Positions 35,805-62,664 of a DNA stretch of 64,000 bases are shown here, one piece after another. Source of the DNA: Hongsoonwoonella zoysiae (GTDB lineage: Bacteria > Pseudomonadota > Alphaproteobacteria > Rhizobiales > Stappiaceae); the NCBI RefSeq assembly GCF_013266695.1, contig NZ_JABRXF010000001.1, positions 2,175,736 through 2,239,735 of the forward strand. Reading direction: 5' to 3'. Position 1 is the first letter of the stretch. Each line of letters starts with the position of its first letter. The translations under genes and the position numbers were made by a program. Below the pieces are notes generated by a model. That model saw only the letters and a program-made list of their open reading frames with translations. It searched no databases and was not told the DNA's origin.

Positions 35805-35817
35805 GGTGCGGAGCCCT

Positions 35818-35984
35818 AGTGTGGCGGATTTGAAATACGCTTCATTATAGCAGCAGCCTCCGGAGCGTATTTCAAATCCGGAAACCACACTGGAAACATA
35901 TATTTGGCTAGTCACCCTTTTTGAATCTGAAGTTCGTTCAGCGTATGCCGCGAATAAAGACGAACTTCAGATTCGCGTGACTAG
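35818..35984. repeat. Two linked long palindromes (dispersed hairpin-repeat element)
   Basis: The first palindrome (35818-35891) has outer arms AGTGTGG/CCACACT and a perfect 16-bp inner stem (35826-35841 with 35864-35879). The second (35908-35984) has outer arms CTAGTCAC/GTGACTAG and a perfect 15-bp inner stem (35923-35937 with 35960-35974). Both loops are exactly 22 bases long and the two units are 16 bases apart. Neither is followed by a T run, so they are not normal terminators. The design points to a REP-like or non-autonomous mobile palindrome. Confidence 0.8.
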
Positions 35985-61128: not shown

Positions 61129-61337
61129 CGCGTGATTTCAGAGTATTGGCAGATTTTACGATTGTATTTTCCGCATGATTCATTGTGCGAAATGCGGATT
61201 GATTCGTTTTTTTTCGATTTTCTTTCAAATCCCGCACGATAACCCTAATGAAAGATCGCCGCAGGCCTTTGATTTTCAAAGGTTCTTCGATTGCGTAAAC
61301 TCCCTGTTAATCAAGGTCCGGTGGCAGGGGCATGTTC

Positions 61338-62127
61338 GTGAGTATTCAAAAGCTGATCTGGGTCATGGTGGCGGTCTATGCCGCTATCTTTATCACCCTT
61401 TGGGGCGGCAAGGCGCTGGCTGCGCCCGTGGAGGTGCCGTTTCACGCGGGCAACGTGAAGCCAGGCACGATCCTCGTGAAGAATTCCGAACGCAGGCTCT
61501 ATCTCGTGCAAAGGGGCGGAAAGGCGCTTGCCTATCGCGTCGCCGTGGGCAAGCGCGGCAAGGTGTGGACGGGCAGGACCTATATCACCGCCAAATACGT
61601 GAAGCCGGCCTGGACACCGCCTGCCGAGGTGAAGCGTGACCCACCGCATCTGCCGGACGTGATCGGAGGAGGGGCGCCGAACAACCCGATGGGGTGGCGG
61701 CGATGACGCTGGGTGATGGGCCCATAAATAAGGCTGGAATGGCGCTTAAAACGGCAACGAAATGCAAGGAGAAGCGCGCCGGGCGGGTCTGCCACCCGGC
61801 CAAGCGATTCGACGTGGCAGGTCGAAGCCGTTTACGCGGCCTTTTAGGATATGGCGGATTTGCTCGGCAACGTCGTTGCAACCCTTTGAAAACCGGACGG
61901 TTTCCTGCAGGCTTGCGCCTCGTATCCGAACAAATCCGCGCATACCATTTCAACCTTATTTATGGGTCCATCACCTAGCCGGCGGGCAGTACGCCATCCA
62001 CGGCACCAACCGCCCGCGATCCATCAGCCGGGCGGTGTCCTACGGCTGCATCAGGATGCCCAATGAGGATATCTCCGATCTTTTCGGGAGAGTGAAGGTG
62101 CGCACGCCGGTGATCGCCGTCAATTGA
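61338..62127 (+). pseudogene. L,D-transpeptidase (YkuD) gene broken by a frameshift and a MITE insertion
   Basis: The 5' part encodes a signal/anchor and the first half of a YkuD domain (GTILVKNSERRLYLVQ, VGKRGKVWTGRTYIT and NPMG). One G is missing after NPMG (near 61694), which brings an in-frame TGA at 61704. After the 262-bp insert (61713-61974) the frame resumes with GGQYAIHGTNRPRSIS and the catalytic motif SYGCIRM, ending at 62127. Removing the insert and one copy of the 4-base target, and restoring the G, gives a continuous family-typical sequence MGVAAMTLAGGQYAIHGTN. So the gene has two lesions. Confidence 0.85.
61713..61974. mobile_element. 262-bp MITE-like element inside the YkuD gene
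   Basis: Terminal inverted repeats of 30 bp (61713-61742 and 61945-61974) match at 27 of 30 positions, beginning GTGATGG. Flanks are CTGG (61709-61712) and CTAG (61975-61978), a probable 4-base target duplication with one later change. It encodes nothing, but has an inner hairpin (TATGGCGGATTTGCTCGG near 61850 against 61925-61944). It must be moved by a transposase encoded elsewhere; the 4-base YTAR-like target suggests the IS5 group. Confidence 0.85.
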
Positions 62128-62176
62128 CCGGAGGCAAAAGCAAGAACAGTATATGCTCCACGTGTATTCGACTTTG

Positions 62177-62204
62177 ACGGCCGCTCTCATGGGCGGCCGT
62201 TTTT
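62177..62204 (+). terminator. Terminator after the YkuD pseudogene
   Basis: ACGGCCGC and GCGGCCGT form an 8-bp stem around an 8-base loop, leading into five T residues. Confidence 0.85.
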
Positions 62205-62289
62205 CTTTGCGTTGGAGTCACTTGCTCAGGCATCTTTACGTTAAGGAAAAGATTCAGGTTTCCGAGAGGCGGACTAAAGGAGGAGGCGC

Positions 62290-62664
62290 ATGCTGGGTGC
62301 GCTGACGCTTATCTTCTCCTGCCAGCTTGCAGGCGAACTTCTGGTCGCGGTGAGCGGGCTGCCGGTGCCGGGCCCCGTTGTCGGAATGGTGCTGCTGCTT
62401 GGCGGGCTGATCGTGCGCGGCGACATTCCGGAGCCGCTGGCGGACGTCGGCGGTGCGCTGCTTTCCAATCTCGCGCTTCTTTTCGTTCCCGCCGGCGTCG
62501 GCGTGATGCTGCATGTCGCCCTGATCGGCCGCGAAGCCCTGCCGATCACGGTGGCGCTTGTCGTCAGCACCGCGGCGACCGTTGCCGTGACCGCGCTTGT
62601 CATGAACGCGCTGCAGCGCAGTGAGCCCGGCGGAGAAGAGAGCGATGGGGGCGAAGCGCGATGA
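62290..62664 (+). CDS. CidA/LrgA family protein
   Basis: The 124-aa membrane protein has four helices and the family stretch GLPVPGPVVGMVLLLGGL. CidA/LrgA proteins are holin-like and work with CidB/LrgB; plant and bacterial pairs also move glycolate or pyruvate. AAGGAGGAGG lies before the ATG. It overlaps the next gene by four bases. Confidence 0.9.
   Translation: MLGALTLIFSCQLAGELLVAVSGLPVPGPVVGMVLLLGGLIVRGDIPEPLADVGGALLSNLALLFVPAGVGVMLHVALIGREALPITVALVVSTAATVAVTALVMNALQRSEPGGEESDGGEAR

Follow-up and report, generated by a model that had tools for sequence, protein, structure and literature searches.

A putative IS5/IS427-type miniature element splitting an L,D-transpeptidase gene of Hongsoonwoonella zoysiae, and the predicted fold of its family

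Miniature elements (MITEs) are usually regarded as shrunken insertion sequences (ISs) with free interiors. Among mobile elements, those of the Tc1/mariner/IS630 type duplicate TA and use a CTAG-like target. The ISs whose ends match the element studied here differ from these in carrying IS5-type transposases. In a table of Paracoccus elements, 11 entries of the IS427 group of the IS5 family measure 832 to 865 bp; 10 of them make 2-bp duplications and the remaining one a 4-bp duplication. The group is described as having two overlapping open reading frames (ORFs) and a frameshift motif; this size and the 2-bp duplication fit the 824- to 866-bp ISs reported below (PMC3281130). Our MITE is like such ISs in its ends and TA duplication but unlike them in being 264 bp long, coding for no transposase, and resembling them at its ends only. 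MITEPsy1 of Pseudomonas syringae, thought to derive from the IS5-family ISPsy2, is likewise small, nonautonomous, and IS5 related and inserts at CTAG or YTAA, but it is 100 nt long and makes a 4-nt duplication, and the main text of the article does not use the term “secondary structure” (PMC3189936). Intergenic repeats of Borrelia plasmids keep a structure, as our MITE seems to do, and are described as having a conserved RNA structure in an article in which the terms “bacterial MITEs” and “compensatory” occur; the organisms are others, and the likeness is by description only (PMC2674063). Literature searches for this MITE family or for structured bacterial MITEs, mostly outside subscription journals, returned no paper with the family named in its title.

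We analyzed a 64,000-bp stretch of the H. zoysiae genome (here, the window) in which such an element lies within a gene for a YkuD L,D-transpeptidase (PF03734). An earlier note on this DNA had proposed that two halves of a YkuD domain flank a noncoding insertion, and this is what Pfam returned when the halves were searched apart: the ORF at 61332 to 61706 covers profile positions 3 to 82 and the ORF at 61762 to 62124 covers positions 85 to 145, with the element between them and the domain, broken at profile position 82/85, incomplete in any single ORF. Both halves match the family and the catalytic motif is present, but the gene is split, with the frame also lost upstream of the element. The features are as follows.

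61332..61706, + strand: 5′ half of the L,D-transpeptidase gene, a 124-aa ORF (YkuD profile match given above)
61710..61711, + strand: left target duplication, TG where TA is expected
61712..61975, + strand: 264-bp miniature element, probably of IS5/IS427 type, with outer bases G...C (inverted ends, multicopy)
61712..61742, + strand: left terminal inverted repeat, the 5′ side of the closing stem
61743..61838, + strand: inner arm (fold and paired changes, alignment columns 32 to 128)
61850..61944, + strand: inner arm (fold and paired changes, alignment columns 140 to 238)
61945..61975, + strand: right terminal inverted repeat, the 3′ side of the closing stem
61976..61977, + strand: right target duplication TA, within CTAG
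61762..62127, + strand: 121-aa ORF starting within the element and running into the 3′ half (YkuD match at residues 62 to 118 only)
61978..62127, + strand: 3′ half of the gene, with IHGTNRP and SYGCIRM motifs, open to the stop (ORF listing, Pfam)

Copies and target of the 264-bp element

The element is framed by inverted arms at 61708 to 61742 and 61945 to 61979 that are 89% complementary. As the earlier note had described, its 30-base ends match at 27 of 30 positions, and its flanks are CTGG on the left and CTAG on the right; the size given there, 262 bp, was slightly short, as the proper bounds with the outer G and C enclose 264 bp. All ORFs internal to the element are too short for a transposase.

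Absence of other copies had been set beforehand as grounds for giving up the reading as a mobile element. Other copies do exist, and the element is no product of chance: BLAST against the 4.36-Mb H. zoysiae genome gave 20 match rows, and in 9 of these (the window copy included) the match exceeds 200 of the 262 bases. Of the 61 genomes searched, 17 contain matches. These comprise 13 of the 37 genomes of the same bacterial family, H. zoysiae included, and 4 of the 24 from other families of the order, among which one match spans most of the element length. A plasmid search found two distant copies, in Nitratireductor and Phyllobacterium.

To define ends and target, we used 65 copies, 27 found by BLAST and 38 by end patterns holding TAGGG (23 copies) or AGGG (15 copies) with two mismatches allowed; L028 and L029 (unclear end alignment), L041 and L042 (internal insertion), and the fragments L010 to L017 were left out. 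Every copy begins with G and ends with C, both in the BLAST-found set (27/27) and overall (65/65). TA flanks both sides in 13 of the 27 BLAST-found copies and in 48 of all 65, with the remaining 17 lacking TA on both sides. The bases outside the TA (left NTAG versus right CTAN) are unequal in 21 of the 48 TA-flanked copies (5 of 13 in the BLAST-found set), and therefore the duplication is TA within a CTAG/YTAR target, most often CTAG. A four-base CTAG duplication, as the earlier note had it, was rejected on these variable outer bases and the invariant inner G and C.

The BLAST-found copies are 261 to 264 bp long, whereas the pattern-found copies are uninformative on length because they were chosen by ends about 249 bases apart. 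Among the matches listed, we counted by eye at least 23 facing end pairs within 600 bases; 20 of these are spaced 248 to 250 bases, and the three others are spaced 155, 255, and 514 bases. One insertion (L038 and L003) is common to Stappia sediminis and H. zoysiae, with flanks 81% and 90% identical, and the family was therefore active before these species split.

Several copies have features of their own. L041 (G001:C10:529556-529928) and L042 (G001:C19:147123-147494), both in S. sediminis, are longer, with about 110 extra interior bases. In H. zoysiae, the locus L030 (G000:C1:1098122-1101094) holds a full MITE and, beyond it, two partial MITE ends that lie about 2.6 kb from each other with several ORFs between them. 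In L009, L027, and L039, the left-flank TAG is the end of an upstream frame, the stop codon of which may be kept by the re-created CTAG.

The split gene and its relatives

The upstream ORF starts at the ATG at 61332 according to the ORF listing. The motifs that we take to be the HGT and S-x-GC-x-R motifs of this enzyme family are both encoded in the 3′ half, with the catalytic cysteine presumably within SYGCIRM. The ORF that runs from the element into this half is probably not a functional protein. The 124-aa 5′ half is 91% identical to the S. sediminis copy (residues 1 to 121) and 81% identical to the Stappia albiluteola copy (residues 4 to 121), and 9 further places in the H. zoysiae genome match this half of the protein. 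A plasmid search with positions 61200 to 61712 gave two partial matches, one annotated as an L,D-transpeptidase.

Near the end of the 5′ half, just upstream of the element, the alignment with S. sediminis shows that the frame is lost within a G run. The earlier note had placed a frameshift near 61694; a departure from the S. sediminis frame is indeed seen in the G run, but it may stem from the assembly, which would leave the element as the sole lesion. We regard an assembly error as a serious though slightly disfavored possibility: the shift falls in a G run, and the S. sediminis gene has an intact frame ahead of its own insert, but a gene that is already broken is expected to gather such changes.

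The same-genus set consisted of three genomes, one per species: H. zoysiae, S. sediminis BGMRC 2046 (G001), and S. albiluteola F7233 (G002). The literature search returned one paper that mentions S. sediminis. In S. albiluteola, the gene is uninterrupted and encodes 190 aa. Among the best 80 of 156 loci from named relatives, 78 stay in frame as far as the catalytic motif (66 matched the script's pattern, and another 12 have a G-C-F-R form in their tails); the other two are S. sediminis, in which the gene is interrupted, and L114, in which reading ended after 7 residues. The comparison with an uninterrupted relative that the earlier note had proposed thus went in its favor, as did the check for relatives in which those 262 bp form part of an intact coding sequence, since the relatives' gene runs on without the insert.

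The S. sediminis gene is interrupted at the same CTAG by an unrelated element of about 160 bp with two hairpins. This two-hairpin family has 19 match rows in H. zoysiae and 20 in S. sediminis (inverted self-matches counted), and matches occur in 14 of 61 genomes. S. albiluteola reads CTTG at the insertion point, and no YTAR was found there in the 49 loci of the best 80 (of 156) that were readable by the script's pattern, two of which have CTAA a few bases on. The sole YTAR of the S. albiluteola gene is at its stop; in S. sediminis, the 5′ half has a single further YTAR, a TTAG. In the window, CTAG occurs 20 times versus 227 expected from base composition. As CTAG is this rare and the gene nearly lacks YTAR, either family had almost no other landing site in the gene.

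Between H. zoysiae and S. sediminis, dN/dS is 0.14 in the 5′ half and 0.05 in the 3′ half, compared with 0.20 in the one control used, the upstream binding-protein gene. For the pooled halves, dN is 0.045 and dS is 0.439 (dN/dS, 0.10). The pooled halves show 16.5 nonsynonymous changes. Had constraint never been interrupted, assumed background ratios between 0.10 and 0.197 would predict 16.7 to 32.8, and with the four assumed ratios tried, no more than about 5% of the path could have lacked constraint. Purifying selection has thus persisted on both halves, and so either both hits are recent or the locus retains some use. Judged from these sequences, both hits seem recent relative to the separation of the two species, and the S. 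sediminis hit is most likely independent of that in the window.

We consider it very probable that a nonautonomous IS5/IS427-type element inserted at CTAG in the YkuD L,D-transpeptidase gene and duplicated TA. A change in the lineage would have created the rare CTAG, nearly the gene's only target; the element would then have entered it, with TA duplicated, and a second, unrelated family would have entered the same CTAG in S. sediminis. The insertion would cut the gene within its catalytic domain, and a full-length enzyme has therefore presumably been lost from this locus. The unrelaxed constraint in both halves counts against this explanation to the extent that it would fit a still-useful gene as well as recent hits. 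The TG in place of the left TA, the 17 of 65 copies lacking TA on both sides, the short reach of the similarity between MITE and ISs, and the failure to find a transposase with matching ends among the relatives sought in H. zoysiae (see below) also weigh against it. Purifying selection between the two species, together with the presence of two different elements at one site, would also suit a locus that switches, with elements entering and leaving the CTAG precisely and the state of the gene, on or off, differing among cells or strains. Such switching is improbable, as the window copy has lost its frame and has an altered left duplication, and no empty site is seen within either species (one genome each).

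Slightly more remote still is an occupation of the site before the species split, with one element later exchanged for the other. The insertions do share the same base position, and one family can lie within the other at a common CTAG (in S. sediminis contig C13, a 264-bp-type element lies inside a two-hairpin element), but constraint should have relaxed in a gene that had been inactive ever since the species separated, and here it has not. Moreover, no two-hairpin match is listed at the window site and no MITE match at the S. sediminis site. If a recent insertion into a newly arisen CTAG is the correct explanation, the split transpeptidase records two hits at the same tetranucleotide, both recent and apparently independent, and offers a natural example of how the creation of a rare CTAG can open a gene to transposition.

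The two families also meet elsewhere. A two-hairpin copy lies inside the window at about 35817 to 35984 (G000:C1:2211552-2211719), with 88% identity across the whole query. In the nested case in S. sediminis (L248; G001:C13:51447-51875), a 262-bp MITE copy sits close to the inner CTAG of the two-hairpin element; insertions supply fresh targets, and elements can therefore stack. Downstream of the transpeptidase gene lies an lrgA/lrgB-like pair (PF03788 and PF04172; 62290 to 63380), in place of which S. sediminis has a different ORF, methyltransferase-like by eye. Just past the gene, at 62148 to 62214, Rfam gives a suhB/mmgR match below threshold (25.2 bits versus a cutoff of 41).

A predicted three-armed fold

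In the predicted fold, the terminal repeats form a closing stem, from which two long inner arms extend. In 8 copies with 40 shuffles each, the folding energy lies 9.0 to 18.5 SD below that of the shuffles. Without the ends, the same copies lie 0.9 to 6.2 SD below, one of the 8 (L230; z = −0.9) being no better than shuffles.

We evaluated paired changes in an alignment of 30 copies, hand-picked from the 65 for diversity. Changes on both sides occur in 75 of 109 pairs, whereas shuffles give 48.6 and slid controls no more than 31. These counts are biased toward the 109-pair structure, for which folds of the same 30 copies supplied the votes, and they still contain the kinship among the copies. 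The corresponding cells number 421, versus 137.5 shuffled and at most 91 slid; the two kinds of control offset the shared-copy bias in part only. RNAalifold alone supports 49 of 70 pairs. The share of the major base is 0.53 in the end loops, 0.825 in the inner loops, and 0.79 in the stems, and the difference between inner loops and inner paired columns is not significant (0.825 versus 0.789; P = 0.14 by permutation). Within the inner part, G faces A at columns 58/102 in all 30 copies, and A faces G at columns 59/101 in 27 of 30.

The pairing does not resemble that of an RNA made from one strand. G-T cells (149) are about as frequent as A-C cells (143), also in the 92 best pairs (81 versus 77), which is notable because the structure comes from plus-strand folds, and these favor G-T. 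Of the two strands, plus is the more stable in 19 of 65 copies and in 6 of 17 representatives (means, −129.7 for plus and −132.9 for minus), and by these models the minus strand folds slightly better, if anything. Rfam returned two weak matches for 61200 to 62300, both outside the element and neither at gathering score, and no match in five loci with MITE copies or in L051. A one-strand RNA is disfavored by the parity of G-T and A-C, by the lack of an Rfam match in the element, and by the plus strand rarely being the more stable. The parity makes the pairing look like that of DNA, or of both strands. These data point to DNA pairing, both strands, or arm-to-arm homogenization as alternatives to plus-strand RNA. 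Homogenization of the arms by conversion or template switching is a possible source of the paired changes, but a pure form of it sits poorly with the persistence of the noncomplementary inner positions at columns 58/102 and 59/101.

The near-constant length across genera, the 75 of 109 pairs with changes on both sides, the inner loops about as conserved as the stems next to variable end loops, and the nearly invariant G-A tandem mismatch suggest that the fold is selected. We therefore propose tentatively, at a little under even chances, that the MITE is a structured mobile sequence with a selected three-armed fold rather than a decayed IS leftover. Given the parity of G-T and A-C, the element would fold as single-stranded or cruciform DNA, a form that a transposase or a replication fork might act on. 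A family that stays close to a single size from genus to genus and keeps its interior paired makes the function of a bacterial MITE interior testable.

Related insertion sequences and the transposase

Stretches around seemingly unpaired MITE ends led to an 839-bp IS in genome G076. In 20 such stretches, several had a second end nearby, ORFs were listed for 9, and one IS (L178) was recognized. The transposase fragment of the G076 IS scores above the cutoff for PF01609; it also matches the NCBI IS5_3 model at 6.5e-25, yet below that model's cutoff. Relatives of the fragment (E ≤ 1e-10) are present in 49 of 87 genomes of the bacterial family, and 11 of 30 transposase loci have paired ends reading GG....GAC(C/T)CATAA, or nearly so, 824 to 866 bp apart. 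The related ISs that we examined have short inverted ends and a transposase split across two frames. S. sediminis has one such IS with matching ends (L189).

MITE and IS ends reach a mean best identity of 13.2 of 17 bases, versus 6.6 when shuffled (highest of 200 shuffle means, 7.4), in a comparison of 28 ends of 14 ISs, most of which were picked for such ends already seen and two of which are one base out of register. The similarity stops about 19 bases in, and no parent IS with interior similarity was found. From the likeness of the ends, we infer that an IS5/IS427-type transposase moves the MITE in trans. The IS5-type transposase suggested in the earlier note thus has counterparts in sister genomes, where IS5-family ISs with matching ends occur, but none with matching ends was found in H. 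zoysiae among relatives of the one transposase fragment at E ≤ 1e-10. H. zoysiae has two such relatives: L216, without recognizable ends, and L204, with other ends, which score 11 and 10 of 17, values between the shuffled mean and those of most other ISs.
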